From IMG/VR virus record IMGVR_UViG_3300008110_000166, positions 25,429-89,428 of that record: a stretch of DNA of 64,000 nt. One strand, given 5' to 3'. Each line of letters opens with the position of its first letter. Positions within the stretch are counted from its first letter, which is position 1. The stretch comes from a virus. The position numbers were made by a program, and so were the translations under genes. Of this stretch, positions 2,885-15,746 are shown piece after piece. Under the pieces are notes generated by a model. That model was not told where the DNA came from. It searched no databases and worked only from the letters and a program-made list of their open reading frames with translations.

Positions 2885-2913
2885 ACGTTACGGCACGCAC
2901 AGGACAGATACAA
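2885..2913 (-). promoter_or_regulatory. cassette promoter (copy 8), leadered type
   Basis: -35 TTGTAT, spacer CTGTCCTG plus nine bases, -10 TAACGT, short leader with an AAGGAGGGG Shine-Dalgarno. Confidence 0.75.
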
Positions 2914-3062
2914 AGGTGACCGAACGTGTGTTCGCATAGCCCCGGGTCTCAAGAGGTACAGCGGGGCTTGGCCGCGAAAGAGCCCGTACCCTATCTCAAC
3001 GTCGGCAGTGAAGGAAGGGAAGGGGTTGCCAACGGAGACTGGATACGGGCTATCGCCGTGGA

Positions 3063-3329: not shown

Positions 3330-3595
3330 TAGATTGCTCCCTCGTTCGCCATCATTTCTGCGAAGTGTCCAACAAACGTTGGCGCACTTACTGCGTTGTA
3401 ATGGTCTGCGATAGCGCAAGCCTGACTGAATGAGAGACAGGGCAGGTCAAACGTCAAACTGTCTGAACTGTCTCCAGTTGGTGAACTGAAGTACAGACGT
3501 ACTGACCATTCCGTGTTCACTCCGTAGAGCGACATTGATAATTTCTGAACTTGTGCGACTAGCACAGTTCCCTTTATTGCGACTTGGGTAGTCAT
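3329..3595 (-). CDS. hypothetical protein, first gene of two-gene cassette
   Basis: 88 residues starting MTTQVAIKGTVLVAQV, strand-rich at first (WSVRLYFSSPTGDSSDSLTF), then a helix with FSQACAIADHYNAV. The start follows AAGGGAATGAA. It is the only cassette gene with a long leader (about 120 nt) rich in complementary segments, so its expression may be controlled by RNA structure. Function unknown. Confidence 0.65.
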   Translation of the reverse strand: MTTQVAIKGTVLVAQVQKLSMSLYGVNTEWSVRLYFSSPTGDSSDSLTFDLPCLSFSQACAIADHYNAVSAPTFVGHFAEMMANEGAI

Positions 3596-3604
3596 TTCAT
3601 TCCC

Positions 3605-3720
3605 TTCGTGTAGTTGAGTAGTTGTTCTTGGAGTTCAGATGGGAGAGCCTGTCGGGAGACTTTGGTAATCTCCCAATTAGCGTTATGGGACACTCTTCAG
3701 TCTCCCACCTGAACGATTAT
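3605..3720 (-). promoter_or_regulatory. long structured 5' leader with alternative pairings
   Basis: Four segments of the minus-strand leader can pair in two ways: TGGGAGACT (3699-3707) with AGTCTCCC (3654-3661) or with TCTCCCA (3640-3646), and TGGGAGA (3669-3675) with the other partner. The two folds exclude each other, as in regulatory leaders. No known riboswitch class was recognised. Confidence 0.5.
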
Positions 3721-3721
3721 T

Positions 3722-3750
3722 ACTTTACAGTTTGCACAGGACAGATACTA
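3722..3750 (-). promoter_or_regulatory. cassette promoter (copy 9), long-leader type
   Basis: -35 TAGTAT, spacer CTGTCCTG plus nine bases, -10 TAAAGT, about 127 nt upstream of the first ATG. Confidence 0.75.
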
Positions 3751-3764
3751 AGTAACCGCCAGTG

Positions 3765-4046
3765 TTACGCTCCGCTCATATTGCCAAGCGTTCCGCACCT
3801 GAATATTTCTTGACGGGTCATTCCTGATATGTCGTTGAGTTCGCCACTCATCAGGTTCTCAATGTGGAGCAACTGCTCTTCTTCTATGTAGTCGCCCCAC
3901 TCGTCAAGTCGTGGACGACGACGACCTAAGTTCAGTGGACGACCGACGTCCACAAACTCGTCAAACTCTTCGCTATCGGAGTAGGCGAGTAGGTACGGCA
4001 GTGGCTTGCTCTTTGGCTTGTAGTTCCTTCTTTGCGTAATTCCCAT
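3765..4046 (-). CDS. hypothetical basic/acidic protein, leaderless cassette
   Basis: 93 residues starting MGITQRRNYKPKSKPLPY. Basic N-terminus, acidic middle (SDSEEFDEF), an Arg-rich stretch (NLGRRRPRLDEW) and a helical end. ATG is 6 nt after a TATTAT -10 box. Function unknown. Confidence 0.65.
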   Translation of the reverse strand: MGITQRRNYKPKSKPLPYLLAYSDSEEFDEFVDVGRPLNLGRRRPRLDEWGDYIEEEQLLHIENLMSGELNDISGMTRQEIFRCGTLGNMSGA

Positions 4047-4052
4047 ATTCCA

Positions 4053-4081
4053 ATAATACTAGACACACAGGACAAACACAA
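4053..4081 (-). promoter_or_regulatory. cassette promoter (copy 10), leaderless type
   Basis: -35 TTGTGT, spacer TTGTCCTG plus nine bases, -10 TATTAT, 6 nt to ATG. Slightly diverged spacer but the same geometry. Confidence 0.7.
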
Positions 4082-4182
4082 ACCGCGGTAGTAGAGCCCC
4101 GCAGCCGAGTTTGTACGGTGGGACGGCTGGCGGGGCTTACAAACAAGAGAAGCGACCCGAGTTGGGCCGCTTCCCGAGTTGG

Positions 4183-4404
4183 TTAGAACCAGTCGGTTGC
4201 TTCGAACGGCTTCTCGTTCGGTTCGCGGAGTGCTTGGCGCCATCCGTCGTGTCCGTTGAAGAAGTACGTCCCTTGGTAATCACCGATGAGCGCTCCAAGA
4301 GCGTCATCGACTCCATCCGCGTCGGCCGCGTCGAGTGCTTGGAGCACCACGGTGACCGCCTTTCGGATTTCCTCGAGGGCTTTCTGCCCAGCCGTTATGT
4401 TCAT
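4183..4404 (-). CDS. small helical protein behind a parS-like palindrome
   Basis: 73 residues starting MNITAGQKALEEIRKAV, helical with Ala/Asp-rich middle (LQALDAADADGVDDALG). ATG follows GGAAGGGAAAG. A longer upstream reading crosses the palindrome and the promoter and is rejected. The leader holds a perfect 16-bp palindrome matching the ParB-site consensus. Function unknown. Confidence 0.65.
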   Translation of the reverse strand: MNITAGQKALEEIRKAVTVVLQALDAADADGVDDALGALIGDYQGTYFFNGHDGWRQALREPNEKPFEATDWF

Positions 4405-4420
4405 TTCTTTCCCTTCCGAA

Positions 4421-4436
4421 TGTTCCACGTGGAACA
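4421..4436. promoter_or_regulatory. parS-like 16-bp palindrome
   Basis: TGTTCCACGTGGAACA is a perfect palindrome and matches the chromosomal ParB-binding consensus TGTTNCACGTGNAACA at every fixed position. It lies between promoter and Shine-Dalgarno, so the RNA could also fold as an 8-bp hairpin with an ACGT loop. No parA/parB gene is seen in this window; host ParB could bind it. Confidence 0.6.
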
Positions 4437-4450
4437 TTTCCTCACCATCA

Positions 4451-4479
4451 AACTTAGTGTCCCCGCAGGACAGATACCA
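4451..4479 (-). promoter_or_regulatory. cassette promoter (copy 11), leadered type
   Basis: -35 TGGTAT, spacer CTGTCCTG plus nine bases, -10 TAAGTT; leader of about 40 nt contains the parS-like palindrome. Confidence 0.75.
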
Positions 4480-4568
4480 AATAGCCCCGCAGCCCGGAAT
4501 GTCGTCAACACCGGTGGCGGGGCTCATGAAACAAGCAACCACCCGTGAGTGGTTACCTGTCCGAGTGT

Positions 4569-4787
4569 CTACTCCTCTTCCGAGAAGAAGACAGCCCGAG
4601 CGGTCGGCGAGTACTTCTTGACCATCGTGTCCATGAATTCCATGAACGTGTCGGTCTCTTCAGACCACTCGCAGAAGTCAATGAGTTGCTCGGGGGTAAT
4701 CCCGTCCTTCGCGCAGTTGTCAAAGACTTCCATTTGGATAATCTTCATCAACACTGCTTTCATCAGGTCTTCACCGTTGAATTCCAT
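4569..4787 (-). CDS. small acidic helical protein, leadered cassette
   Basis: 72 residues starting MEFNGEDLMKAVLMKI. Mostly helical, Met- and Glu-rich (FMEFMDTMVKKYS), ending FFSEEE. ATG 4787 follows GAAGGGAGGG; an upstream in-frame start overlaps the -10 box and is rejected. Function unknown. Confidence 0.65.
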   Translation of the reverse strand: MEFNGEDLMKAVLMKIIQMEVFDNCAKDGITPEQLIDFCEWSEETDTFMEFMDTMVKKYSPTARAVFFSEEE

Positions 4788-4807
4788 ATTCCCTCCCTTC
4801 ACTATCA

Positions 4808-4836
4808 ATGGTACATACAGCGCAGGACAGATACAA
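4808..4836 (-). promoter_or_regulatory. cassette promoter (copy 12), leadered type
   Basis: -35 TTGTAT, spacer CTGTCCTG plus nine bases, -10 TACCAT, short leader with Shine-Dalgarno. Confidence 0.75.
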
Positions 4837-4929
4837 AGTCCGCCACGCTAGCCCCGCGAGTCAAACCACCCCCCGGGGCTTTGCAGAGAAAGAATGCTAC
4901 CCGAAGGCAGCACTCTCTCTACTTACTGA

Positions 4930-5340
4930 TTAGCAACCAGCAAGACGCTCGTAGTACGAGCACATAGCGTCGTCATACGCGCTCTGGCGGTAATCGGCGA
5001 GATACTCGCGAGCCTCGTCAGTAAGGCAGTCCTCGTCCAACTCGCGCACCTTGCCCGCGCCGTGGCAAACCTCGCAAGGCTCGTCAAAGCGACCAGAGAG
5101 GTAGTCCTCTTGGAACTCCTCGTCCAACTCGTCCCAGCGTTCAGACGAATACGTACCAAAGCGGCGTGAATGACCGCCGTCGCCGTGGCAGTAGTCGCAG
5201 ATAGCCCACACGAAGCGCAGAGCGAACGAGGCGATTTGCTCGTCCTTCATCGCGTCCACGAGGACACGAGCCTCCTCAGCCTCAGCGCACGCGATATCGC
5301 TCGCGTAGCGGTCGCGCAACCCGTCATAGTCAATGTTCAT
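4930..5340 (-). CDS. DnaJ-type double zinc-finger protein
   Basis: 136 residues. Two CxxCxGxG motifs, CDYCHGDGG near residue 49 and CEVCHGAGK near residue 90, form the kind of paired zinc site seen in the cysteine-rich domain of DnaJ and in many small zinc-ribbon proteins; the J domain is absent. The rest is acidic and helical. The ATG follows AAGGAGGGG. It may bind a protein partner or nucleic acid; which one is unknown. Confidence 0.7.
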   Translation of the reverse strand: MNIDYDGLRDRYASDIACAEAEEARVLVDAMKDEQIASFALRFVWAICDYCHGDGGHSRRFGTYSSERWDELDEEFQEDYLSGRFDEPCEVCHGAGKVRELDEDCLTDEAREYLADYRQSAYDDAMCSYYERLAGC

Positions 5341-5373
5341 AAATACCCCTCCTTTGGGAATATGGTCAAGACC

Positions 5374-5402
5374 AGCCTAGTAATGGGACAGCACAGATAC
5401 AA
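5374..5402 (-). promoter_or_regulatory. cassette promoter (copy 13), leadered type
   Basis: -35 TTGTAT, spacer CTGTGCTG plus nine bases, -10 TAGGCT. A TGGTC/GACCA inverted repeat follows the -10 immediately. Confidence 0.7.
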
Positions 5403-5588
5403 AGCGAAAGACCAGCTCGGAAACAACCTGGCTCTTTGTAAACCTTGTTATACCCCTTTGTTCAGCGCAAGCCCCGTTGGTTGGTCCGCGCAGCGGGGCT
5501 TTCCTAAAGAAATAGGCGGTGCGAGTGGAAGGGTTACTCGCACCGCCTCTTACCGAGCCTAAATGGAGAAAGGCTACAAGGTAAGTTC

Positions 5589-5921
5589 TTAGCAATCCTC
5601 AAACACTTCACCGCCATCAGTAATGCGGAGATTGCAGTCGTTATTTCGTGGCAGGAATACTTGCTGACCGACCACAAGATTAGTTCCGTATGTATCTACA
5701 GCGTCATCAAGTGCTTCGCCAAGATTGCCATCACAGTTGCGAGTTACGAGGTCAAACAGAGTTATCCCATCACTGACGATAATCGGGCGACTATCGCAGA
5801 TATATGCGTCTATCGCCTTCTCTGTCTGTAGGTAGAACATCGCCGATATTGACAGAGCAATCCCAACGAGAATACCAAGCAAGATATTTTGAGTTTTCAT
5901 ATTTTCCCTTCGCTTTTCCAT
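5589..5921 (-). CDS. membrane-anchored LysM-domain protein
   Basis: 110 residues. Residues 8-30 (KTQNILLGILVGIALSI) form a signal anchor or signal peptide. The remainder resembles a single LysM domain (ITLFDLVTRNC...GEALDDAVDTYGTNLVVGQQVFLP), which binds peptidoglycan; cysteines at both ends could form disulphides. Two starts are possible: ATG 5921, 7 nt after the -10 (leaderless), and ATG 5900 behind GAAGGG inside the first codons. A paralogue with the same plan lies at 14036-14287. Likely located at the cell envelope. Confidence 0.7.
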   Translation of the reverse strand: MEKRRENMKTQNILLGILVGIALSISAMFYLQTEKAIDAYICDSRPIIVSDGITLFDLVTRNCDGNLGEALDDAVDTYGTNLVVGQQVFLPRNNDCNLRITDGGEVFEDC

Positions 5922-5928
5922 ACAGATA

Positions 5929-5957
5929 ATCGTATCCGTCACACAGGACGGATACAA
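5929..5957 (-). promoter_or_regulatory. cassette promoter (copy 14), leaderless type
   Basis: -35 TTGTAT, spacer CCGTCCTG plus nine bases, -10 TACGAT, 7 nt to the first ATG. Confidence 0.75.
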
Positions 5958-5960
5958 AAC

Positions 5961-6053
5961 TTACTTTTTTCGAAGTACAGAGCGTACGTAGGCGAACACA
6001 AGCCCCGCAACGAAACCAATCAACATTCCTTGGTAGTAAGCAATAATGCGCAT
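5961..6053 (-). CDS. 30-aa single-span membrane miniprotein
   Basis: MRIIAYYQGMLIGFVAGL and then VFAYVRSVLRKK: one hydrophobic segment flanked by a positively charged tail, the shape of a small inner-membrane protein. It follows the 184-aa gene upstream by 38 nt and should share its transcript. Shine-Dalgarno is weak. Its coding sequence contains a partial GCCCCG repeat arm, so the match to that family may be chance. Confidence 0.5.
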   Translation of the reverse strand: MRIIAYYQGMLIGFVAGLVFAYVRSVLRKK

Positions 6054-6091
6054 AATCACAAGATACCAGCCTCGGCCTATTTCCGTTCGGA

Positions 6092-6646
6092 CTACTCGCA
6101 GTACGAAATATTCCAGTCCACGACTGTCCCGAAGGCCTTGTACGGTTGGAACTGTGCTCGCTGTGAGTCGGACATTTCTGCGAGTGGCGTGAACTCTGCC
6201 CGTGTGAAACGAACCGACTGAAAGCCTTTCGCGTTGCGGTGGCCATTGCGAACTGGAATCGTCACCTCGCGCTCGGGTGTGAGTACCCCGTATCCCGCGC
6301 GACCCATCTCCATACGCGACCAAACTTGCGTGTACGAAGTGAGCGGTGAGTATGAGCAATCGCCGTTCGCGTGTTCCTTGTAGCCCGCGACCCATTGCCT
6401 GTGCTCGCTACGCGCAACCCATACGAAACGCTTCTCGCGCTTACTCCACACGCTCTCCTCGTACTGGAATACGAACAGGCCAGTCGTGTTTTCGTCGTAG
6501 GCCGTGTTAGCCCACACCTCAACTTCGTCAAGCCAAGCGGAATCGTGCTCGCGTCGTGTAGGGCAGTCCGCGTACCACGGAAGGCCACTCGGGTTCGGGT
6601 TGGGTGTACGCGTCGGCATCTCGCCTCGCATCAGGGAATGTGTCAT
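6092..6646 (-). CDS. hypothetical protein, leaderless cassette
   Basis: 184 residues starting MTHSLMRGEMPTRTPN. Trp- and Tyr-rich with a strand-rich core (TGLFVFQYEESVW, KRFVWVARSEHRQWV). No family recognised. The start is set by ATG lying 7 nt after the -10 box; the longer upstream reading runs through the promoter. Confidence 0.65.
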   Translation of the reverse strand: MTHSLMRGEMPTRTPNPNPSGLPWYADCPTRREHDSAWLDEVEVWANTAYDENTTGLFVFQYEESVWSKREKRFVWVARSEHRQWVAGYKEHANGDCSYSPLTSYTQVWSRMEMGRAGYGVLTPEREVTIPVRNGHRNAKGFQSVRFTRAEFTPLAEMSDSQRAQFQPYKAFGTVVDWNISYCE

Positions 6647-6653
6647 ACAAACA

Positions 6654-6682
6654 AGATTACAGAGAACACAGGACAGAAACAA
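6654..6682 (-). promoter_or_regulatory. cassette promoter (copy 15), leaderless type
   Basis: -35 TTGTTT, spacer CTGTCCTG plus nine bases, -10 TAATCT, 7 nt to ATG. Confidence 0.75.
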
Positions 6683-6713
6683 AGGCCGCGCTGTCGCGCG
6701 AAGAGGCCGGGGC

Positions 6714-6908
6714 TTAGAACAGACTGTCTTGCTTGGGGGCCGTAGTGCAGAAACTATGTTTGTATTTCCATAGTTCATTCTCAACAGACACAACTGTCTT
6801 GCCACTACTTTTCAGCCACACTTCAGCAAGCCTCATTGACGTACTTGCGCTTGGGTGTATTTCGTTATTACAGATACAACACGTGTATAGAGGTGGCATT
6901 GATGACAT
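6714..6908 (-). CDS. small cysteine-containing protein, third gene of cassette
   Basis: 64 residues with a CCICNNEIHPSASTS segment near the N-terminus and a later Cys (HSFC), compatible with a treble-clef-like zinc site. It lies 12 nt after the preceding gene. No good Shine-Dalgarno; an internal ATG four codons on is an alternative start. Function unknown. Confidence 0.5.
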   Translation of the reverse strand: MSSMPPLYTCCICNNEIHPSASTSMRLAEVWLKSSGKTVVSVENELWKYKHSFCTTAPKQDSLF

Positions 6909-6920
6909 ACTCGAATCGTA

Positions 6921-7160
6921 TCAGCCTGTAAAGTCAGTTCCGTAATCGTCTTTAGATGGATTGTAGAAGTCGTCGTGAGTGCGCTCAATGTCAGTCCGAC
7001 GCAGTGGCACTATCCAAAAGTATCCACGAGTTTGTTCGGGTTGTTTGTCTATCCAAGCTTGAGCCCCGGCACCTTTCTCAAACGGACCATAGAAGCGGGT
7101 AGCACCCATTGGTTGAGAGAGCGAGACAACACACGCCCCTATGTCGCCCAGTTCTACCAC
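6921..7160 (-). CDS. hypothetical protein, second gene of cassette
   Basis: 79 residues with a GTG start overlapping the end of the upstream gene by 7 nt (CTGTGGTAG). Contains ATRFYGPFEKGAGAQAWI and ends KDDYGTDFTG. Overlap suggests translational coupling. Not recognised. Confidence 0.55.
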   Translation of the reverse strand: MVELGDIGACVVSLSQPMGATRFYGPFEKGAGAQAWIDKQPEQTRGYFWIVPLRRTDIERTHDDFYNPSKDDYGTDFTG

Positions 7161-7312
7161 AGCGACATTGACGCATCTACCATCTCGTAGAAGTGAGCGT
7201 CACAGATGGTTGTGTGAGTTCCGTTCACTCGGCGTACTTCATTGTTGCCACCACACTCAACGCCGTGAGCGTGAGTGAACTGGCAAGTTTCGGTGTTCGT
7301 GGTGTTCTCCAT
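7154..7312 (-). CDS. small Cys/His-rich protein, leaderless first gene
   Basis: 52 residues starting MENTTNTETCQFTHAHG. Cys and His residues at 10, 14, 16, 20, 37 and 40 suggest a compact zinc-binding fold (TCQFTHAHGVEC, then ICDAHF). ATG is 6 nt after the -10. First of a three-gene transcript. Confidence 0.6.
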   Translation of the reverse strand: MENTTNTETCQFTHAHGVECGGNNEVRRVNGTHTTICDAHFYEMVDASMSLW

Positions 7313-7318
7313 AAGGTA

Positions 7319-7347
7319 AGAGTACAGGTCACGCAAGTCAGATACCA
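7319..7347 (-). promoter_or_regulatory. cassette promoter (copy 16), leaderless type
   Basis: -35 TGGTAT, spacer CTGACTTG plus nine bases, -10 TACTCT, 6 nt to ATG. Drives a three-gene cassette. Confidence 0.75.
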
Positions 7348-7356
7348 ACTTGCTTA

Positions 7357-7713
7357 TTAGTACCACTCACTCCATTCGTCTTCCTCTTCGTCTTCATCTT
7401 GCTCTTCACCTGCGCCCTGCGGAATCAGCGTGGTGAATCCTTCGTTCGGGTCTTCGTTGTTTGTCTCAACTGCCGAGATGAATCGCAAGCCACACGACTC
7501 GTGCCACCAAGCGTGAAGTTTCGCCAACATCTCTTCAGGCGTTCCCGTGAAGATGTCAGGTGCGTAGTTCTCCCTGAACCAACGCTCTTGACCTGCGTCC
7601 ATCGCAAGGTAAATCTTGTGGCACGTGTCCCAAGCGATAAGGCGAGCGTCTTTGACTGCCACCTCAACATTGTTCCAGTATTTCTCCATTGTGTCCATTT
7701 TGTTCTCCTCCAT
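7357..7713 (-). CDS. hypothetical protein with acidic tail
   Basis: 118 residues starting MEENKMDTMEKYWNN. Helical and Trp-rich (KLHAWWHESCGLRFI), then an acidic tail (GEEQDEDEEEDEW). Two starts overlap: ATG 7713 is leaderless at 7 nt from the -10, and its second and third codons form a GGAGGAG Shine-Dalgarno for ATG 7698. Function unknown. Confidence 0.65.
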   Translation of the reverse strand: MEENKMDTMEKYWNNVEVAVKDARLIAWDTCHKIYLAMDAGQERWFRENYAPDIFTGTPEEMLAKLHAWWHESCGLRFISAVETNNEDPNEGFTTLIPQGAGEEQDEDEEEDEWSEWY

Positions 7714-7720
7714 ATCTAAG

Positions 7721-7749
7721 AGGTTACTTGGCGCACAGGTCAGATACAA
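7721..7749 (-). promoter_or_regulatory. cassette promoter (copy 17), leaderless type
   Basis: -35 TTGTAT, spacer CTGACCTG plus nine bases, -10 TAACCT, 7 nt to ATG. Confidence 0.75.
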
Positions 7750-7861
7750 AGACCCGTGCCGGGGCTTATGGGTTACTATTTATGGGTGGCTGACGAAAAG
7801 AAAAAGAAAAAAGACAAACCAGCAAAGGTCAAGCGCAAAGAGCGTAGACCGAGTTGCTGTC

Positions 7862-8077
7862 CTATTCGTTAGACCAGCGAGCCTCTACCCATTCGTGAAG
7901 TTTCGGCGGGCAATTGTCTCTATGAAAAGGGTCAAGCATTGTTCCGTTCAGTGCTCTCGCAATAGACGGCTTCACTTCATCTAAATAGTTGTAATAAATC
8001 TGCCCGTATCTCATTGTTTCGTCGTGGCGAAGTTCGTACTTCAGCGCAACATCAGCAAGAAACTCTAGGTAATTCAT
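7862..8077 (-). CDS. small helical protein, last gene of WhiB operon
   Basis: 71 residues starting MNYLEFLADVALKYEL, with Tyr-rich helices (YGQIYYNYLDEV). ATG overlaps the stop of the WhiB-like gene by ATGA, so it is coupled to it and may work with it. Function unknown. Confidence 0.65.
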   Translation of the reverse strand: MNYLEFLADVALKYELRHDETMRYGQIYYNYLDEVKPSIARALNGTMLDPFHRDNCPPKLHEWVEARWSNE

Positions 8078-8355
8078 ACCGCAACTTTATCTCGCTCACC
8101 ACGAAGTAAGTACGAAGGCAATACGGCGTATCCAGCCATATGACGTTCTCTCTCCGTCTCTCCGCCCCACACTCCGTATTGTTCTTTATTCTTGCGTGCT
8201 ATATCACGACACTGAATTGCTACTGGGCAAGTGCTACAAACTTTCTTGGCAAGTGCTTCACGCTTGTCTCGCCGTTCAGGTCGTTCGGCACTCTTCCCGT
8301 AAAAGATATAAGCCTTGCCGTGACAAGGTCGTGGTGTATCAAAGACGATGCTCAT
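8074..8355 (-). CDS. WhiB-family iron-sulphur transcription factor
   Basis: 93 residues. Four cysteines (C11, C40, C43, C49; the last three as CSTCPVAIQC) match the [4Fe-4S] ligand set of WhiB proteins, followed by the family signature YGVWGGETERER. WhiB proteins bind the primary sigma factor region 4 and alter promoter choice in actinobacteria; phage copies can act against host WhiB. ATGA overlaps on both sides place it inside a five-gene operon. The C-terminal region is short, so DNA contact may be limited. A second WhiB lies at 32052-32441. Confidence 0.85.
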   Translation of the reverse strand: MSIVFDTPRPCHGKAYIFYGKSAERPERRDKREALAKKVCSTCPVAIQCRDIARKNKEQYGVWGGETERERHMAGYAVLPSYLLRGERDKVAV

Positions 8356-8720
8356 AGTGAGTACTCTACTAACGGCATAACAATAATCGGTGTTTGTTCA
8401 CCAACCCACGCACCGACAACATTGAAGTCCACATACTCCATTGCTTCTTCATATTCCATTCCGTCACGCTCCATACAAACATTTATCAGTTTGTCGTAAG
8501 AATAGACAGCGAGTATTGGTTCGTTTATTCGTTGAGAGAAACCGATAAAGGCTTCATCAAACCCGTCCATCAGCAATGCGCTTTCACCCATTTCTTGTAA
8601 TGCTTCATCTATTTGCGAGCGTGAAGGTTTTGTAGACATTTCTGTCCAACCATTCTTGTCGCCTATTTCTTTCCAATGTTCGTAGGTGTTACCAACGAAT
8701 ATGTCTTTCGCTTCGCCCAT
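8352..8720 (-). CDS. conserved phage hypothetical protein
   Basis: 122 residues. The segments LMDGFDEAFIGFSQRI, LAVYSYDKLINVCMERDG and FNVVGAWVGEQTPIIV match, from memory, a widespread short phage family (around 100 aa) of unknown role. Start ATG 8720 overlaps the upstream stop (TAATG) and follows GAGAGGG; a longer reading is rejected. Directly precedes the WhiB-like gene. Confidence 0.7.
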   Translation of the reverse strand: MGEAKDIFVGNTYEHWKEIGDKNGWTEMSTKPSRSQIDEALQEMGESALLMDGFDEAFIGFSQRINEPILAVYSYDKLINVCMERDGMEYEEAMEYVDFNVVGAWVGEQTPIIVMPLVEYSL

Positions 8721-8902
8721 TATGCCCTCTCTTGCGTAGTACTGATGAAGTAGTCCACGATAGCCTCTATTTCGCCACAAGCGGAACATATTTCAGTTTC
8801 GTTGTCACGTCGTGAGAGAGCCCCGGGGTAAGCCCCTGGCATTTCATTGTTTGGAATAAACCCATTGCAATTTGGGCAGATGTGGTCAATGCTCTTTTTC
8901 AT
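8720..8902 (-). CDS. zinc-ribbon small protein
   Basis: 60 residues with two CxxC pairs, CPNCNGFIPNNE at residue 9 and CSACGE near residue 39, a classic zinc ribbon. ATGA overlap with the gene before it. Likely a nucleic-acid or protein-binding adaptor in the WhiB operon. Confidence 0.65.
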   Translation of the reverse strand: MKKSIDHICPNCNGFIPNNEMPGAYPGALSRRDNETEICSACGEIEAIVDYFISTTQERA

Positions 8903-9156
8903 TTGTCCTCGCAGTAGTAGAAGCGAATATCTCTGTAGAAGTCTTGAGAGATGTTGGTGATGTCATACACAGCGTCACACCTTGCGCACCAGTAATGCGC
9001 CCGTGTCCACTCTGATGCGACTGGCTCACACTCTGTCCATTTTCCATTTACGTTTTTACACGGATAGAAACCGTCGTAATGCGGTGCGTTGCCACACGAA
9101 CATTCCAACCAGTCCTCGCTAGCGAGTATCGCCGTGCTTCGTTCTTGTGTTTTCAT
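8899..9156 (-). CDS. cysteine-rich protein, leaderless first gene of WhiB operon
   Basis: 85 residues starting MKTQERSTAILASEDW. Cysteines occur as ECSCGNAP, YPCKN, ECEP and WCARCDAVYD, suggesting one or two zinc sites. ATG is 7 nt after the -10, so the operon mRNA is leaderless. Function unknown. Confidence 0.65.
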   Translation of the reverse strand: MKTQERSTAILASEDWLECSCGNAPHYDGFYPCKNVNGKWTECEPVASEWTRAHYWCARCDAVYDITNISQDFYRDIRFYYCEDK

Positions 9157-9163
9157 ACCCACG

Positions 9164-9192
9164 ACAGTACAGATAACGCAGGTCAGATACAA
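9164..9192 (-). promoter_or_regulatory. cassette promoter (copy 18) of the WhiB operon
   Basis: -35 TTGTAT, spacer CTGACCTG plus nine bases, -10 TACTGT, 7 nt to ATG. Its -35 lies 33 bp from that of a divergent promoter of the same family. Confidence 0.75.
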
Positions 9193-9224
9193 CGCTACGC
9201 CGAGCGGGGCTCTTGTACGGGCTT

Positions 9225-9253
9225 TAGTATCTGTCCTGTGCCCCCTGTATCGT
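9225..9253 (+). promoter_or_regulatory. cassette promoter (copy 19), plus strand
   Basis: -35 TAGTAT, spacer CTGTCCTG plus nine bases, -10 TATCGT. Same family as the minus-strand copies but facing right, driving the putative RNA. Confidence 0.75.
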
Positions 9254-9259
9254 TTGATG

Positions 9260-9478
9260 TGTGGCAGGGAAGCCTGTCGCCTCGGCTCTCAGACAGTTGG
9301 AGAAACGAGACATACCAGCAAGCCTCTCTAACGCTAAGGCTCTGTCGGGATGGTGTACTAGTCACCTAGCCCGTCATCCGTCCGCCTCTTACGAAGCAAC
9401 CGCTACAGGTAGTCTCGCCAACGGGCAAGGCCAGCCCAGTCTGGGAGTTGGGGCGAGAGGTTTCTCTGTTTTTTTATT
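9260..9478 (+). ncRNA. putative structured non-coding RNA, about 215 nt
   Basis: The transcript expected from the promoter just upstream would run to an AGAG/CTCT hairpin followed by GTTTTTTTATTT. It contains many local pairings: AGCC/GGCT (about 9310-9335), GGTG/CACC and GATG/CATC (about 9348-9380), and a 3' domain where CTCGCCAAC pairs with GTTGGGGCGAG around an inner GGGC/GCCC stem. An 85-codon frame from GTG 9261 (7 nt after the -10) also exists and continues past the terminator, but its product resembles no protein I know and is encoded partly by the terminator, so RNA is preferred. No known RNA class was recognised. Confidence 0.5.
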
Positions 9479-9491
9479 TCGCGAGCCCCGG

Positions 9492-9656
9492 CTACCCGAG
9501 ACGCATTGCGCCGAGTGACTGGTTTGTTTCACCCAGTGAGTTCTTGGTAGGGGTGGAGACATCAAGTTGGATACGTTGGAGTATCACTTCGAGTTCATCC
9601 AGTTTCTTATTCATTGCGGTTACTTTGTTGAGAATATCCACGATGTGCTGTTCCAT
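9492..9656 (-). CDS. small coiled-coil protein
   Basis: 54 residues starting MEQHIVDILNKVTAMN. The first 35 residues carry heptad-spaced Ile/Leu/Val (ILNKVTAMNKKLDELEVILQRI), a short coiled coil suited to oligomerisation. Divergent from the helicase gene with overlapping -10 boxes. Function unknown. Confidence 0.55.
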   Translation of the reverse strand: MEQHIVDILNKVTAMNKKLDELEVILQRIQLDVSTPTKNSLGETNQSLGAMRLG

Positions 9657-9673
9657 TCCATAGACCCTAGCAG

Positions 9674-9680
9674 TATTATC
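9674..9680. promoter_or_regulatory. overlapping divergent -10 boxes
   Basis: TATTAT on the plus strand is followed by 6 nt and the GTG of the helicase gene; on the minus strand the same bases read GATAAT, 18 nt before the coiled-coil gene. No cassette-type spacer motif is present, and -35 boxes are unclear. Confidence 0.4.
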
Positions 9681-9685
9681 TACCC

Positions 9686-11605
9686 GTGCGCCTATTTCTT
9701 GACCACGACTTACTGGCACTGGACTTCCCCTATGACGCCGACCAAGTTGCTGAAATCAAGGCAGTACCCGGGGCTAAGTGGGACAAGGTGGACAAGTTAT
9801 GGAAAGTGCCTATTAGTTCCATAGATGAAGCCCGTGGTTTCGCACAGAAACATAAGTTTCAGATATCTGATGAAGTTCTGCGGTTTACTATCCCGGGAAG
9901 GAAAGCAAAGCGTGGGGCATATCTCAAAGGTGACTGGGTATTCATACAAATCCCGTATGACAAAGTAGTAATCAACGCCGTGAAGCGGATACCAGGGATA
10001 ACTTGGGATAAAGGTGAAGTGGCGTGGAGAGCACCCGTAACCTCGGCACAAGACACTATTGACTGGGCTAACTCATTCGCCGTATCAGTAGATGAGACAG
10101 TATTCCGTGTGGCAGATGAGACAAAGGCAAAGTTAGAGCGATTACAACAAGCCTCACGCTCAACAGACGCAGAGATAGAAGTGCCGGGATTACAAGGAAC
10201 GCTATTGCCTTATCAAAGAGCAGGCGTGGAGTACGCCACCCGTGCGAAGCGAACGTTCATAGCAGACGAGATGGGTTTGGGAAAAACATTACAAGCGATA
10301 GCAACACTGGAGTATTCCTCGCAGACAGATGAGGTGTATCCAGCAGTAGTCGTATGCCCACCAACTCTCGCACTCAACTGGAAAGCAGAGTGGAACAGAT
10401 GGTTGCCTCACAGACGAGTTTCCGTTGTAAGTAATCGCAAAGAGTTTCCTGAAAGTGGAACTTATGATGTCGTGGTAGTCGGTTACTCAAACATTCAGCA
10501 TTGGGAAAAGCAACTAACTGGGCATAACTCATACGTATTTGATGAAAGTCATTACACAAAGACACCAACGGCGCAACGAACTAAGTCGGCTATAAAGATG
10601 GCAAAGAGCGCACCCAAACACGGCATTGTGTTGTGTCTTACTGGAACACCCGTAACCAACAGACCAGCAGAGTACGCAAGTCAGTTAGACATAATCGGAA
10701 AACTCAAAGAGTTTGGTGGCTTGTGGGGTTTCTATCGGCGTTACTGTAACGCATTCCAAGACAGGTTTGGTCAGTGGAATATCAGTGGAAACTCACACCT
10801 TGACGAACTCAATGACAGACTTCGTGGTACTTGCTACATACGCCGTACCAAGTCACAAGTGCTATCCGAACTGCCACCCGTAGTACATAACCCAGTTCTC
10901 GTGGAAGGAACAGAGGCGGGGCTCAAGGAGTACGTGAAGGCAGAGCGAGACATCATCAAGTACATAACGGACAGAGCCCGTGAAATCGCATTGGAACTCG
11001 GAGAAAGCCCGTACTCGGCAGCGGTGGTGGCAAGAATAAAGGCAGAAAGCAACGAACACCTAGTCCGACTATCCGTTCTTAGACGACTATCAGCGAAAGC
11101 GAAAATGCCGTTGGTAGAGGAGTGGGTAAACGAGCGCATAAATGACGGGAAAAAGGTGGTTATCGCTGCGCACCACAGAGACGTTGTAGATGAACTCGCA
11201 AGAAAGTTCGGAAATCTACGGATACAAGGCGATATGAAAGTCACCGACATTGAGGAACAAAAGCATAAGTTTCAGACGCTACCCGTAGAGGAAGCACCCG
11301 TAATCGTTCTAAGTATTCAGGCAGCCAAGACTGGACACACGCTTACCGCAGCGCAAGACATTGTATTTGTGGAGTTACCGTGGACACCCGCAGACCTTGA
11401 CCAAACTTATTCACGACTTCACCGCATTGGACAGCAAGGAAGCGTGACGGCGACTTATCTACTGATGGAAGGAACCATTGACGAGGAAATCTATTCGCTT
11501 ATTGAGAGAAAGCGGAAGGTTGTCAATGCGTCAGTAGAAGGTGGAGAGTTCGTTCAGTCGTCAGCGTCGCAGTTGGTACTGAACTTCATAGACCGACACC
11601 GCTAA
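9686..11605 (+). CDS. SNF2-family helicase with HARP-like N-terminus
   Basis: 639 residues. The N-terminal part has two similar segments, KWDKVDKLWKVP (about 31-42) and ITWDKGEVAWRAPV (about 105-118), like the HARP repeats of SMARCAL1-type annealing helicases. The ATPase core follows: LLPYQRAGVEYA, motif I DEMGLGKT (194-201), motif II DESH (286-289), motif III LTGTP (318-322), and motif VI SRLHRIGQQG near residue 590. Such enzymes use ATP to remodel or reanneal DNA, for example at stalled forks. GTG start, probably leaderless (6 nt from TATTAT). Usual length for phage members of the family. Confidence 0.88.
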   Translation: MRLFLDHDLLALDFPYDADQVAEIKAVPGAKWDKVDKLWKVPISSIDEARGFAQKHKFQISDEVLRFTIPGRKAKRGAYLKGDWVFIQIPYDKVVINAVKRIPGITWDKGEVAWRAPVTSAQDTIDWANSFAVSVDETVFRVADETKAKLERLQQASRSTDAEIEVPGLQGTLLPYQRAGVEYATRAKRTFIADEMGLGKTLQAIATLEYSSQTDEVYPAVVVCPPTLALNWKAEWNRWLPHRRVSVVSNRKEFPESGTYDVVVVGYSNIQHWEKQLTGHNSYVFDESHYTKTPTAQRTKSAIKMAKSAPKHGIVLCLTGTPVTNRPAEYASQLDIIGKLKEFGGLWGFYRRYCNAFQDRFGQWNISGNSHLDELNDRLRGTCYIRRTKSQVLSELPPVVHNPVLVEGTEAGLKEYVKAERDIIKYITDRAREIALELGESPYSAAVVARIKAESNEHLVRLSVLRRLSAKAKMPLVEEWVNERINDGKKVVIAAHHRDVVDELARKFGNLRIQGDMKVTDIEEQKHKFQTLPVEEAPVIVLSIQAAKTGHTLTAAQDIVFVELPWTPADLDQTYSRLHRIGQQGSVTATYLLMEGTIDEEIYSLIERKRKVVNASVEGGEFVQSSASQLVLNFIDRHR

Positions 11606-11637
11606 CTGCCAGCTCGAGCCCCGCTCGCCCTCGCAGT

Positions 11638-11666
11638 TAGTTTCTGTCCTGCGTGCTTATTAGGCT
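11638..11666 (+). promoter_or_regulatory. cassette promoter (copy 20), plus strand
   Basis: -35 TAGTTT, spacer CTGTCCTG plus nine bases, -10 TAGGCT. The leader starts with a TTGCC-GTAA-GGCAA hairpin before a GGAAGGGGG Shine-Dalgarno. Confidence 0.7.
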
Positions 11667-11710
11667 TACGTTGCCGTAAGGCAAACGAGCCCAAGGAAGG
11701 GGGTGAACAA

Positions 11711-11932
11711 GTGAAAAGAGAAATCGTGTGGCGTCTCACCGAAACGCAGAAGCAACTCATTCTGCGTGCGGTACTCCACTGCCCTTGCGAAATCGGCGAG
11801 GGCGCAACCGAGCACGAGGAACACCACGCTCTGCTTCGCAAGAGCGAGGAAGAACTCGCAAAACTCGGGTGGGGTGGCGAGGGGTTGTGGCATTTTCTCA
11901 ACCACAACACCAAGCGCCTCGCAAGGCGTTAG
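11711..11932 (+). CDS. small helical protein, GTG start
   Basis: 73 residues starting MKREIVWRLTETQKQLI, helical and charged, with CPCEIGEGATEHEEHH and a basic end (NTKRLARR). The GTG start is supported by GGAAGGGGGTGA 7 nt before, the same leader type as the gene at 1808-2008. Followed by a G-rich inverted stretch that could be its terminator. Function unknown. Confidence 0.6.
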   Translation: MKREIVWRLTETQKQLILRAVLHCPCEIGEGATEHEEHHALLRKSEEELAKLGWGGEGLWHFLNHNTKRLARR

Positions 11933-11987
11933 TGCGTAGGGGCAGGGGCAGGCAACCCTTGTCCCTCGCTCGCCCGTGTGCCGGGGC

Positions 11988-12419
11988 TTACTTGGCCTTG
12001 GGCTCGGGGGCTACACCCATAATCTCATCTGATATGAGTTTGGTGTACTTCTTGCGCAGACGCCATATTTTTTGGTTCATTTCTGCCATTGCGTCTGTCT
12101 CACGGGCTTTGCGTATTGCTTCTTTGTCGTAAACGCCAAACTTCTTGAACAATATGTCATCAATGTCATTGTTCTCAAGGATTATGTCGGTAATCCAACC
12201 AGCCTGCTTGTCAATGCTCATCAAAAGTTCGCACATACCTTCGTAGCCAAACTCGGTGAATACTCGGTTCACCAAAAGTGAACAAAAGTGAGAGCGATAC
12301 AGTACTTCTGCGTCAGCGCTCTTGTTCATAAACTCGCTCAACCAAACGGCAAGTTCTTCACGGGTCGGCTCACCATCAAACGAACTGTCGTCAGGGTCAA
12401 AATCAGGTTCATTATCCAT
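11988..12419 (-). CDS. hypothetical acidic protein
   Basis: 143 residues starting MDNEPDFDPDDSSFDG; acidic disordered N-terminus, then a helical body (LLMSIDKQAGWITDIILE) and a basic C-terminus. No Shine-Dalgarno of strength; a TAAGGC box 7 nt upstream is a poor -10, so the promoter is unclear. Lies downstream of the TIGR03299-like gene. Function unknown. Confidence 0.6.
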   Translation of the reverse strand: MDNEPDFDPDDSSFDGEPTREELAVWLSEFMNKSADAEVLYRSHFCSLLVNRVFTEFGYEGMCELLMSIDKQAGWITDIILENNDIDDILFKKFGVYDKEAIRKARETDAMAEMNQKIWRLRKKYTKLISDEIMGVAPEPKAK

Positions 12420-12474
12420 TTAGCCAGCCTTACTCGCCGCGGGGCTTACAGCTCAATGGTATCGCTAATACTTG

Positions 12475-13500
12475 TCAAGCCAGTGACAGGATTATCTCTT
12501 GCGCTGTGATTTTCTTTTGTGTCACCCACGAGTTGTTGCTCATTGACGCGAGTGCTTTTTCGTCTGCTTTTGCGTCTCGGTAGTGGTCAAGGTACTCAAC
12601 TATTGCGTTGTAAGCACTCCACCCGTTGTACCCGTAGCCACCTGCGTTCTTTTCATTGTCATACACACCACGAACGAGTGCGACAACTCCGTCACGATTT
12701 CGTTTCTGTCTTTCGGTATCTGTTGCTTTCGCTGGGAATACTCCGTCAAGTATCTTCGTGAGTTGTGTGCTTGCCTGCGGAACGCTAATCGTCAATAGTT
12801 TCTCGGCGGTCTTTTGGAACTGTGTAGCCCACGCTGTTGAGATTTCTAATACTTTTTGTGCTTCCTCAATGGCGTGTTCAGCGTTACGAGTATGTCGTGC
12901 TGTGAACACCCGTGGTGCTTGTCCGATACCTGCGATTACCGTGTTCTTACACACCGCACGAATAGAAGTGTTAGCGAACGTAATCGGGGTCTTTCCGTCG
13001 TGTCCGTTACGAACGAGTAAGTAGCGTTCTATTTTGTCGTTTATTCCCGTCGGGTCAATGACTAGCCCACCCAAGTCAAGCGAACTAAAGAACTCACGCC
13101 CACCGTCTAGCACTCCGCAAGTGTCCACTACTGCGTCACCCTTGCTTGCGCCGACAATGGCGAGTGCGTAGTCCAAGCACTCACGGTTCTGCTGTACGAC
13201 ATAGCGTGTGCCGACTGTTGCTAGTCCATCAAACGAGCCATCAGGGTTCACCCGTACCGTTGCCCGACTATCCTCAATGACTATTGACGAGCCATCAGGG
13301 TTCGTAATCAGGTTTCCTTCCGTGTCCACGACTGCGACTTTCGTGGTGACGACATCATAATCAGCCTGTGCCGTTGCCAACATTTCCTCGGCTGTCTGTA
13401 GTCCCTTCATAGCCACGCCAAGTCTGTGCCACGGGATTTCTCTCTCGGCATACGCCATTTTCGCTACACCCTTAGCGTCTATCTCTAGCCCGTGTGCCAT
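12475..13500 (-). CDS. DUF932 / TIGR03299 phage-plasmid-like protein
   Basis: 341 residues. The opening MAHGLEIDAKGVAKMAYAE..PWHRLG and the later NRECLDYALAIVGA, GGREFFSSLDLGG and TSIRAVCKNT segments match the phage/plasmid-like family known as TIGR03299 in the DUF932 superfamily, whose usual length is 320-360 aa. The biochemical role is not established; members are common in actinophages and mobile elements near replication genes. Confidence 0.8.
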   Translation of the reverse strand: MAHGLEIDAKGVAKMAYAEREIPWHRLGVAMKGLQTAEEMLATAQADYDVVTTKVAVVDTEGNLITNPDGSSIVIEDSRATVRVNPDGSFDGLATVGTRYVVQQNRECLDYALAIVGASKGDAVVDTCGVLDGGREFFSSLDLGGLVIDPTGINDKIERYLLVRNGHDGKTPITFANTSIRAVCKNTVIAGIGQAPRVFTARHTRNAEHAIEEAQKVLEISTAWATQFQKTAEKLLTISVPQASTQLTKILDGVFPAKATDTERQKRNRDGVVALVRGVYDNEKNAGGYGYNGWSAYNAIVEYLDHYRDAKADEKALASMSNNSWVTQKKITAQEIILSLA

Positions 13501-13588
13501 TTCGTGTGTCTTTCTCTATGTCTCAGTTAGATTTATCTGAAACATACCACACGCTTACTGCGTTACAGGGTAGGTGTAGCCCCGGCTT

Positions 13589-13732
13589 CTACCGTCTGAA
13601 CTCCGCCCACGGGTCACGCCCTGCGTTCACTTCCTCTTGTTCCCAGTCAAGTAGGTCGTTCGCCCACTTCTCGCACTCGTCGCAAGCGCACTTGGGTTCG
13701 TGCCATTTGGGTTGCTGTGGTCGTGGTCGCAT
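13589..13732 (-). CDS. small zinc-binding-like protein
   Basis: 47 residues, MRPRPQQPKWHEPKCACDECE then a Trp-rich acidic end. The CACDEC cluster and nearby His could bind zinc. ATG shares a base with the preceding stop (TAATG). Second gene of its cassette. Confidence 0.55.
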   Translation of the reverse strand: MRPRPQQPKWHEPKCACDECEKWANDLLDWEQEEVNAGRDPWAEFRR

Positions 13733-13980
13733 TACTCGTCGTCCTCGTCGTCGTCGTACATTCCGAACAACTCTGTCCAACACTTCGGGTGAGTTCCTGA
13801 GATAAGTTGCTCTCGCAAGTCTGCCGAGAGAAACGGGAATGCGTCTTGTATGTACGCACCTGCGTTACGCAACTCAATACCGCGCAAGCCTTCCTCGCGT
13901 GGCATAGTGAGTTCTCCAAACTCGCCACAGTGGTAGCAACGCTTCGTCTCAATGGTGATGGTGTCGGTGGTGGTGTTCAT
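13732..13980 (-). CDS. small protein with CxxC motif, leadered cassette
   Basis: 82 residues starting MNTTTDTITIETKRCYH. CYHCGEFGEL near residue 15 and a later C (HPKCW) suggest a metal site; the C-terminus is acidic (MYDDDEDDE). ATG 13980 is preferred over an in-frame ATG two codons upstream because GAAGGGAG would otherwise abut it. Confidence 0.6.
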   Translation of the reverse strand: MNTTTDTITIETKRCYHCGEFGELTMPREEGLRGIELRNAGAYIQDAFPFLSADLREQLISGTHPKCWTELFGMYDDDEDDE

Positions 13981-14001
13981 AATCATCTCCCTTCGTATCC
14001 A

Positions 14002-14030
14002 ATAGTAGTGACAACACAGGACAGATACTA
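14002..14030 (-). promoter_or_regulatory. cassette promoter (copy 21), leadered type
   Basis: -35 TAGTAT, spacer CTGTCCTG plus nine bases, -10 TACTAT, 21-nt leader with GAAGGGAG. Confidence 0.75.
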
Positions 14031-14035
14031 AGCGA

Positions 14036-14287
14036 TTACTCGCCTAGCACTATCCTCTGTGTCGGGTGAATGAGTGTGCCGTACTTCTTGACCATCTCGT
14101 AGTCGGCTTGCTGTAAGTTGCCACGACAATACTTACGAACGATACCGCTGATGGTGTCGCCATACTCAACCTTGTGCGATACCTTCTCACAGGTGTATGG
14201 TGCGTGTATTGACTGCCACGCTGAATAGGTAACTGTGGCGAATGCGACTACTGCGATTACTACTTGGGCTATCTGCTTTGTTCTCAT
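14036..14287 (-). CDS. membrane-anchored LysM-domain protein (second copy)
   Basis: 83 residues. An N-terminal hydrophobic segment (IAQVVIAVVAFATVTYSAW) is followed by a single LysM domain: HKVEYGDTISGIVRKYC, then VKKYGTLIHPTQRIVL. Cys residues at either side of the domain could form a disulphide. Same plan as the protein at 5589-5921. ATG lies 7 nt after a -10 TACCGT. Likely envelope-located and peptidoglycan-binding. Confidence 0.72.
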   Translation of the reverse strand: MRTKQIAQVVIAVVAFATVTYSAWQSIHAPYTCEKVSHKVEYGDTISGIVRKYCRGNLQQADYEMVKKYGTLIHPTQRIVLGE

Positions 14288-14294
14288 ATCATCT

Positions 14295-14323
14295 ACGGTA
14301 GGGAATACTGAAACACAAGTCAA
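14295..14323 (-). promoter_or_regulatory. canonical-type promoter, leaderless
   Basis: -35 TTGACT, 17-bp spacer, -10 TACCGT, 7 nt to ATG. The spacer lacks the family motif, so this is a related but separate promoter with the same leaderless geometry. Confidence 0.65.
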
Positions 14324-14466
14324 GGATTTGTGAGCCTTATGGGATAAGGGTTATACCCGTAGCACTACCCGTAGGCACTTGCGACACTCCACCTATAAGC
14401 GCACTGTGTCGGTTGCTATGTCGGTGCGTAGTGCGCCTGCCTTGTGTGCCGGGGCTTCGAGCTGGC

Positions 14467-14535
14467 CTACAGTTTGTCTTTGACTAGGTAAGTGAATGCG
14501 AGCAACATTGCGCTCAATATGACCAACTGGTTCAC
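14467..14535 (-). CDS. 22-aa hydrophobic miniprotein overlapping upstream stop
   Basis: The frame reads MNQLVILSAMLLAFTYLV then KDKL, a short membrane-spanning segment with a charged tail. Its GTG start overlaps the TGA of the secreted Thr-rich protein (GTGA), the arrangement of translational coupling. Tiny size and weak Shine-Dalgarno make it tentative. Confidence 0.4.
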   Translation of the reverse strand: MNQLVILSAMLLAFTYLVKDKL

Positions 14536-15311
14536 TTCTTGACTGTCGCCTTCTTGCTCTTGACGACTGGCTTCTTGCTCTTGACGACTGGCTTCTTGAC
14601 GAATGGCTTGCGGGTCGTCGTTACTGATGGGGTGAATACAGTGCTCTCAACTCCTGCTACTGCGCTAGCAACTAGCGGTGTCGTAGTCGTTGTCGTAGTC
14701 GGTGTCGGTGCTTCGTATGCCACTGGCGTCGGCTCATCTACTGGTTCGCTCGCTGGTTCGTTCATTGGTGCTGGTGCTTGCGTCGTCGTCGTCACTGCGA
14801 CAGTGGTGGTCGTAATCACTGCGACAGTCGTCGTCGTGGTCGGTGTGACAGTGGTGGTCGTCGGTGCTACTCCATCTATTGTGCCGTCACACGATACGGC
14901 ACAGTCTCCGTTCGTCACGACTGGGGTGGTGCTTGCGCCTATCAACTGATACACGACACTACGTGCGAGTGCGACATCTATTCCACTTCGCCACAGTGCG
15001 AGTGTAAAGTTCGGGCGATAACCATTGCCACCTGAACCATTACCAATACCTACGCCGACATACTCACACACGCCGAACCAACCGTGCGCCTGTGCTATCG
15101 CCTTGCCTAGTGCGGTGTGTCCACCATTGGAATAAGTCACTAGGCGTTCGTATGCTGTCGTGCCTACCTCGGTGTCAATGATGGTGAACACTGTAGGCAC
15201 TGCTGATGATGGTGCTTGCGTCGGCTCTAGGCATTCATCTGCTCTCGCTTCACTGACTGGGGTGAACGACAGTGCGACTGCGACTGCGAGTGTGGTGGTT
15301 AGTAACTTCAC
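14532..15311 (-). CDS. secreted Thr-rich protein with basic tail
   Basis: 259 residues. Residues 1-24 form a signal peptide (LLTTTLAVAVALSF, then SEARA-D cleavage-like end). A folded part of about 120 residues with four cysteines includes KAIAQAHGWFGVCEYV. It is followed by Thr runs (TTTTVTPTTTTT), which resemble glycosylatable linkers, and a Lys-rich end with two KKPVVKS repeats. GTG start behind AAGGAG. The plan suggests an extracellular or wall-bound protein; the exact role is unknown. Confidence 0.7.
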   Translation of the reverse strand: MKLLTTTLAVAVALSFTPVSEARADECLEPTQAPSSAVPTVFTIIDTEVGTTAYERLVTYSNGGHTALGKAIAQAHGWFGVCEYVGVGIGNGSGGNGYRPNFTLALWRSGIDVALARSVVYQLIGASTTPVVTNGDCAVSCDGTIDGVAPTTTTVTPTTTTTVAVITTTTVAVTTTTQAPAPMNEPASEPVDEPTPVAYEAPTPTTTTTTTPLVASAVAGVESTVFTPSVTTTRKPFVKKPVVKSKKPVVKSKKATVKK

Positions 15312-15365
15312 TATGTCTCCTTGTAGTAGGGATACCCGTAGGCTACCCGTGGCACTTGCGACTTG

Positions 15366-15746
15366 CTACTTCGTGTTCTCGTCGTCGGCTTCTTGCCAAC
15401 CTTGACCGTCGTCGGTTGCGACAAGGGTGGTGAGTGAACCGTCGTCGTTCGTGCGGAATATCCAACACCAACGGCAACACGGCTTATCACCTTTGCGACT
15501 TGGGTGCTGTCCTTTACCTAGTCGTTCACCTAGTCGGGGTAGGGCTGTGAGTAGGGTGACGATACAGTCGTGACACAACTTCCACGGGTGGTCTTCATCT
15601 TCGTCTGCGAGACTGTCACTGAAACCGCTGTAGTAACCAAACTGATTTGCGTCTAACAACCAACCGTCGTCTATCAGTTCGTTATGAATGTGCGCTTCAT
15701 ACGACTTCTCACAAGCGTCGCATACGACAATGTGACCATCTCTCAC
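15366..15746 (-). CDS. cysteine-rich zinc-finger protein
   Basis: 126 residues. CDAC near residue 9, CHDC near residue 58 and CCRWCW near residue 90 are likely metal ligands. The GTG start overlaps the TGA of the previous gene (GTGTGA), so it is translated by coupling; a TTG further upstream would overlap by 61 nt. Function unknown. Confidence 0.6.
   Translation of the reverse strand: MRDGHIVVCDACEKSYEAHIHNELIDDGWLLDANQFGYYSGFSDSLADEDEDHPWKLCHDCIVTLLTALPRLGERLGKGQHPSRKGDKPCCRWCWIFRTNDDGSLTTLVATDDGQGWQEADDENTK

Follow-up and report, generated by a model that had tools for sequence, protein, structure and literature searches.

A small phage RNA family whose switching palindromic loop suggests symmetric homodimers

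The packaging RNA (pRNA) of phage phi29 has paired ends and a three-way junction and associates with itself through loop-loop contacts, and the retroviral dimerization initiation site (DIS) is a hairpin loop with a 6-nt palindrome that varies between viruses and is always self-complementary. Few natural RNA homo-oligomers have evolutionary support, and the known bacterial and phage ones are large. Among these, GOLLD and ROOL are RNAs of phages and prophages that form RNA-only nanocages. OLE RNA is a homodimer whose palindromic kissing loop switches sequence between species, and the symmetric intermolecular loops of GOLLD are likewise backed by palindrome switching (PMC12286853); this argument served the kissing loops of both RNAs, which have been visualized by cryo-electron microscopy (PMC12286853, section 8). 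Here we analyzed 64,000 nucleotides of viral DNA (the window; positions 25,429 to 89,428 of the 90,420-base uncultivated-virus record IMGVR_UViG_3300008110_000166 in IMG/VR) and describe a locus that is likely a real gene for a folded noncoding RNA of about 215 nt. It belongs to a family of approximately 20 distinct members (about 190-240 nt), which share with OLE and GOLLD a palindromic loop that switches sequence. The features of the window copy are given in Table 1.

An initial annotation had proposed that positions 9225-9478 encode an independent structured RNA, served by a phage promoter and a terminator. This proposal is borne out by covariation, by loss of the reading frame in a relative, and by the use of different lineage-specific promoters in five lineages, although the RNA proper probably begins near 9261 and not at 9225. 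For 9261-9478 the computed folding energy is -101.2 kcal/mol (z = -6.53; none of 200 shuffles equals it), in agreement with the earlier description of about 215 nt full of complementary segments, whereas the opposite strand reaches a z of only -3.24. The predicted RNA (+3 to the T-run) consists of a 31-bp closing stem and a branched apical rod. All full-length members that we folded share a long P1, a short P2, a small P4 at the junction, P3, and a rod tipped by P6, while the inner rod takes different minimum-energy folds in different members. The long closing stem is present in the distant members folded at full length, which do not include the partial copy L135, and nearly all substitutions in P1 among relatives preserve pairing. 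P3 differs in sequence among five members and is perfectly complementary within each (in relatives CAGUC/GACUG, CAGAAG/CUUCUG, CAGC/GCUG, and CAGUAA/UUACUG). In seven members, covariation was scored over inner P1, P2, P4, lower P6, and the loop palindrome: 96.2% of cells were paired compared with 84.8% after shuffling, 15 cells held double changes compared with 5.3, and the covariation score was 0.381 compared with 0.180, falling to 0.02-0.14 when partners were slid by 1-3 columns. The covariation among homologues that had been suggested as a check is thus found above both kinds of control. One subgroup (L128, L131, L137, L147, L157, L173, and L182) carries an extra conserved CCGACGG hairpin next to P2.

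The locus lies at a divergent junction adjoining a helicase gene, and its long imperfect inverted repeat with a palindromic centre might instead be read as a DNA-level element, such as a replication origin, a recombination site, or a cruciform. We regard this as very improbable, given that the long stem of the window copy contains several G.U pairs that can form in the plus-strand RNA only, that stem changes mostly preserve pairing in that RNA, and that each record holds 1-3 copies of the element, which may point either way and which, in the five lineages examined, follow a cassette promoter.

Table 1. Features of the RNA locus, in window coordinates.
Feature	Position	Strand	Basis
Cassette promoter	9227-9253	+	GTATCTGTCCTG at 9227-9238 plus -10 TATCGT at 9248-9253; motif scan, with every copy aligned
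Noncoding RNA gene	9261-9475	+	Ends predicted from -10 spacing (5') and T-run (3'); fold, homologues, covariation, L004 frameshift
P1 5' arm, closing stem (13 + 18 bp, one unpaired nucleotide)	9263-9294	+	Fold; relatives
P2 5' arm GUUGG, partner 9418-9422	9296-9300	+	Covariation; relatives GUCGG/CCGAU
P3 5' arm CGAGAC, partner 9412-9417	9306-9311	+	Per-sequence helices
M1a (AAGCCTCT), module a 5' strand of internal loop	9320-9327	+	Alignment A9; nested association with M2b
M1b (AAGGCTCT), module b 5' strand	9336-9343	+	Alignment A9; nested association
P6 apical hairpin (CGGG/CCCG, GGUG/CACC)	9346-9373	+	Fold, covariation, loop tests
ACUAGU self-complementary apical loop, predicted kissing-loop dimer site	9357-9362	+	8 palindromes here among 19 distinct members
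M2a (ATCCGTCCGCCTCT), module b 3' strand	9376-9389	+	Alignment A9; nested association
M2b (AACCGCTACAGG), module a 3' strand	9398-9409	+	Alignment A9; nested association with M1a
P4 hairpin GGGC-AAGGCCA-GCCC at three-way junction	9423-9437	+	Covariation C-G/G-C/U-A, G-C/A-U
P1 3' arm, running into T-run (terminator-like)	9439-9470	+	Fold; relatives
Seven-T run, predicted intrinsic terminator	9469-9475	+	Sequence

In the apical loop of P6, which often consists of a U and six further bases, every one of the 23 loci tested (19 without near copies) carries a 6-nt palindrome. Eight palindromes occur (ACUAGU, CCUAGG, UCUAGA, GCUAGC, CGUACG, CCCGGG, CCGCGG, and UCCGGA): the central adjacent pair switches between UA, CG, and GC, the next pair between C-G and G-C, and every one of the four forms occurs at the outer pair. 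The central tetranucleotides CUAG, GUAC, CCGG, and CGCG are all self-complementary, for which the probability by chance is about 1.5e-5 if independent. By comparison, among the P4 loops of these RNAs only 5 of 18 are palindromic; the P4 loop of L129/L130 contains GCUAGC, a second palindrome within one RNA that may offer a second dimer contact. The pattern at the tip, palindrome switching at adjacent loop nucleotides, is the one expected of symmetric kissing-loop homo-oligomers. Since adjacent nucleotides covary, which is impossible within one chain, we infer a symmetric homodimer, and the data suggest that two RNA copies join through the tip loop. We rejected a YNMG-tetraloop reading of CUAG as a full account of the tip, given that other members have GUAC, CCGG, or CGCG there. 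In G010, G018, and G063, each record holds two copies with different palindromes, so that the dimers of those copies should not mix; the copies in G057, G059, G061, G065, G066, and G067 carry CCCGGG.

Loop-mediated self-association, here predicted, in a phage RNA with paired ends and a three-way junction is also what a packaging RNA that oligomerises on the portal, as in phi29, would display. A self-complementary loop, however, would yield dimers and not the rings built from two interlocking loops. In pRNA the two loops are different and mutually complementary. The RNA described here has one constant self-complementary loop, and its P4 loop is unlike the tip. The RNA also sits among small cassette genes at up to three copies per record, and in some records these copies carry different, non-matching palindromes. 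A packaging role therefore seems a distant prospect.

The rod carries two copies of one conserved internal-loop module, with 5' AAGGCUCU opposite 3' AUCCGUCC. Under subtypes that were defined after the sequences had been inspected, these copies are nested: M1b predicts M2a in 19 of 19 cases (P = 0.001) and M1a predicts M2b in 15 of 15 (P = 0.002), while the crossed pairings carry no prediction (P = 0.10 and 0.37). Because the M1 and M2 types covary, they appear to form an internal module. This association bears on a different possibility, namely that the RNA is a trans-acting antisense RNA whose C-rich segments pair with host or phage mRNAs or with rRNA. The conserved words AAGGCUCU and AUCCGUCC do lie outside strong helices, and E. 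coli 16S rRNA offers a potential partner for 16 of 18 positions; however, that match is no better than for shuffled RNA, the one 12-nt complementarity elsewhere in the window is at about chance level, and the mutual covariation of M1 and M2 argues for an internal module. Base pairing with rRNA or phage transcripts is therefore not supported, and we consider an antisense role unlikely. The initial annotation had also named the RNA a candidate regulator or mimic. A regulator is plausible, an early regulator or scaffold being the likeliest role, while a mimic finds no support: there was no Rfam match, rRNA complementarity did not exceed that of shuffles, and when E. coli 16S, 23S, and 5S rRNA were scanned for conserved words, the only hit was one copy of AAGCCTCT, in 23S. 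In the P6 region of L218, L221, L131, and L157, we observed a further motif, GCGAYA(G/C)UCCCUCC or similar, lying between module and tip on both rod strands; it appears to form a two-fold symmetric internal loop.

The plus-strand copy of the cassette promoter that had been noted upstream of the RNA is present, and its -10 element stands at the usual distance, in the same placement as in the other promoter copies. The motif GTATCTGTCCTG occurs 29 times in the window at ≤2 mismatches, compared with 13.1 ± 3.7 in shuffled sequence (0 of 100 shuffles reach 29), and its exact copies lie nearly all on the minus strand, within 1-16.2 kb, upstream of small genes. Many minus-strand copies carry an ATG 8 nt past the -10 and are apparently leaderless, which places the probable start of the RNA at about G9261. 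At the 3' end, the hairpin with seven T that had been predicted stands in part: the seven T are there, and T-runs likewise follow the RNA copies L025a, L025b, and L080, but what leads into them is the 3' arm of the 31-bp stem closing the whole RNA, rather than a local hairpin. A T-to-C change in L002, a relative, makes the local hairpin weaker and the long stem stronger. Within positions 1-16200 of the window, about 20 promoter copies (GTATCTGNCCTG, then TANNNT) lie mostly upstream of small minus-strand genes, and a second plus-strand near-copy (GTTTCTGTCCTG, 11640-11651) lies downstream of the helicase and is followed by a Shine-Dalgarno-like GGAAGGGGGTG.

Relatives show the same promoter architecture, each with its own lineage motif. 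Minor variants aside, five lineages have the RNA directly behind a copy of their own cassette promoter (GTATCTGTCCTG in the window, ACATYTGTTGTA in L025, ACATYTGAT in L085, TAGGAAACYCCAGCC...GGTATAG in G024, and GTATAATGA in L137), and in L131 a TTACAAGGC-type motif precedes it. The cassette motifs of the other lineages differ from that of the window and keep an identical layout. An RNA copy is driven by 2 of 12 cassette promoters in L025, by 1 of 12 in L085, and by 1 of 10 in L137, and likewise in G024 and L131; nearly all remaining cassette promoters in these five precede protein genes. No neighbouring gene is common to the whole family as a dedicated protein partner, and in the absence of an accompanying protein family the RNA thus behaves as a free-standing cassette.

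Given these neighbours, the locus might be a leaderless small protein gene driven by the cassette promoter. The sole frame from the expected 5' end, which the initial annotation had described as running through the terminator, does exist (9261-9518, GTG start, 85 open codons), and its GTG is placed exactly as the leaderless ATGs nearby. In the relative L004 (82% identical), however, a +1 insertion brings a stop after 25 codons, while the helices and loops flanking the inserted base remain intact. The frame also crosses the stem and terminator, and the RNA copies of L025 and L085 lack the Shine-Dalgarno that follows the same promoters ahead of protein genes. Nor do the homologues show codon-level conservation; the conserved pattern tracks helices and loops. 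By the L004 indel in the only frame, coding capacity of 9261-9475 is excluded, and we rate a protein gene as the least probable of the alternatives considered. The closed 5' and 3' ends, stable rod, and cassette promoter would also suit a 6S- or Ms1-like RNA that binds RNA polymerase. We give this little credence, since no Rfam 6S match was found, lax filters included, and the fold has 31 nearly unbroken closing pairs followed by a three-way junction in place of an open-promoter-like central bubble. The conserved parts here are the repeated modules and the palindromic tip, and 6S RNA has neither.

The family was assembled in steps. A four-sequence covariance model recovered two distant copies on the related contig L025 (E = 3e-9 and 3e-6); a second model that included these copies and loci gathered by helicase profile added L075, L080, L081, and L085; whole-record searches added L126, L128-L132, and L135; and L137, L144, L147, L148, L157, L160, L173, L182, and others came from scanning for the doubled word TAAGGCTCT. 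Covariance-model and profile searches recover distant members with full architecture, while close relatives differ by indels and by mostly pair-keeping substitutions. With E values of up to 0.5 allowed, the final profile has matches in 31 of the 71 virus records, a figure that is not a prevalence because the records were mostly chosen for already holding a relative. Among the weakest matches inspected, L218, L219, and L221 look real and L220 and L222 are unconvincing, so that 31 is an upper bound by about two. Matches of R1 on the opposite strand reflect the self-complementarity of the stem, and matches of the L133 and L139 type are chance.

Searches of known sequences gave no further relatives. 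Against Rfam 15, only tRNAs matched in the whole window at gathering score, the best hit for 9150-9550 with lax filters had E = 2.4, and 12 relative loci gave no match on the RNA (models for GOLLD, ROOL, OLE, 6S, and pRNA included). There was no match to the family in 50,697 phage records, and blastn found no RNA relatives in known phages (window, L131, L137, L147, and L157) or plasmids (window); the Streptomyces-phage matches cover sequence downstream of the L137 RNA by a gene start. A profile search did not find the RNA in StarPlatinum and DSL-LC01. Exact 22-mer and gapped-pattern scans returned close copies only, two looser patterns added to the known members only chance matches in coding DNA (L048-L050, L052-L056), and a pattern scan of GTDB genomes found nothing. 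Judged by these searches, the family is previously undescribed.

The phages that carry the family probably infect actinobacteria. In the window, a WhiB-like regulator (8074-8355, minus strand) points to an actinobacterial host. A ribonucleotide reductase gene (34365-36290, plus strand) adjoins four tRNA genes (36298-37313), and a host search with it returned only two contigs of metagenome-assembled genomes from other phyla, perhaps misbinned phage. A 2149-aa protein (57499-63948, minus strand) resembles, at residues ~730-1120, Caulobacter and Brevundimonas phage proteins annotated as ArdC-like antirestriction or primase.

Taken together, we think it fairly probable that the locus specifies a stable noncoding RNA that forms a homodimer through its palindromic loop and, with much less certainty, that this dimer is an early decoy or scaffold. 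In the mechanism that we propose, the gene would be transcribed from the cassette promoter, the RNA would close through the long stem ending in the terminator, and two molecules would pair through the palindromic loop into a homodimer displaying four modules. As a guess, these modules, which keep their sequence while little else in the RNA does, would bind a host or phage protein partner, and the dimeric RNA would act as an early decoy or scaffold. Several points weigh against this proposal. Transcription, the RNA ends, and the dimer are inferred from sequence, and protein binding is argued solely from sequence conserved outside canonical helices. ACUAGU would form a weak 6-bp duplex, and the palindrome could partly reflect short-loop hairpins because its outermost pair can also form inside one molecule. 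The P values of the palindrome and module-association tests ignore shared ancestry, and the M1 motif served to find many members, so that its conservation partly reflects how members were selected (the palindrome was not in the pattern). Some distant members, whose boundaries are guessed, have a modest fold z, and in several the sense and antisense strands fold alike. The host was assigned from the WhiB-like gene and from the relatives that the helicase has in phages of Arthrobacter and Gordonia. Only tentatively would we extend the proposal to a class of small phage RNAs that homodimerise by a switching palindrome, with paralogues of one genome (UCUAGA/ACUAGU, CGUACG/UCCGGA, and ACUAGU/CCGCGG) dimerising separately and each presenting four binding modules to an early host target.

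The family is small enough for routine structural study, its dimer site can be compared directly in eight natural palindromes, and the repeated modules offer a defined bait for partner discovery. More broadly, besides small proteins the cassette regions of these phages hold RNA genes, which are invisible to gene callers. In comparison with known systems, the RNA shares with GOLLD and ROOL that it is phage-encoded and noncoding and has symmetric intermolecular loops, here predicted from sequence. GOLLD and ROOL are much larger, have complex folds (GOLLD often >800 nt), and often lie by tRNA islands, whereas the window RNA is a rod that bears a single palindromic tip, is encoded among small cassette genes, and has no Rfam match; an ornate fold of more than ~500 nt near tRNA genes is not what we found, as the RNA has about 215 nt and the nearest tRNA gene in the window is 8.7 kb away. 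With OLE it shares the switching palindromic loop (the dimer being predicted here), although OLE is bacterial and larger, has known protein partners, and shows no Rfam similarity to this RNA. The paired ends, three-way junction, and predicted loop self-association recall phi29 pRNA, whose loops are interlocking and non-palindromic and which serves packaging in small Bacillus podoviruses. Retroviral DIS is part of a genomic RNA, whereas here the loop tips a separate small RNA. Thus, the family is predicted to work like the OLE/GOLLD group without being a member of it: it differs in size, Rfam assignment, and tRNA context, and has the palindrome switch in common.
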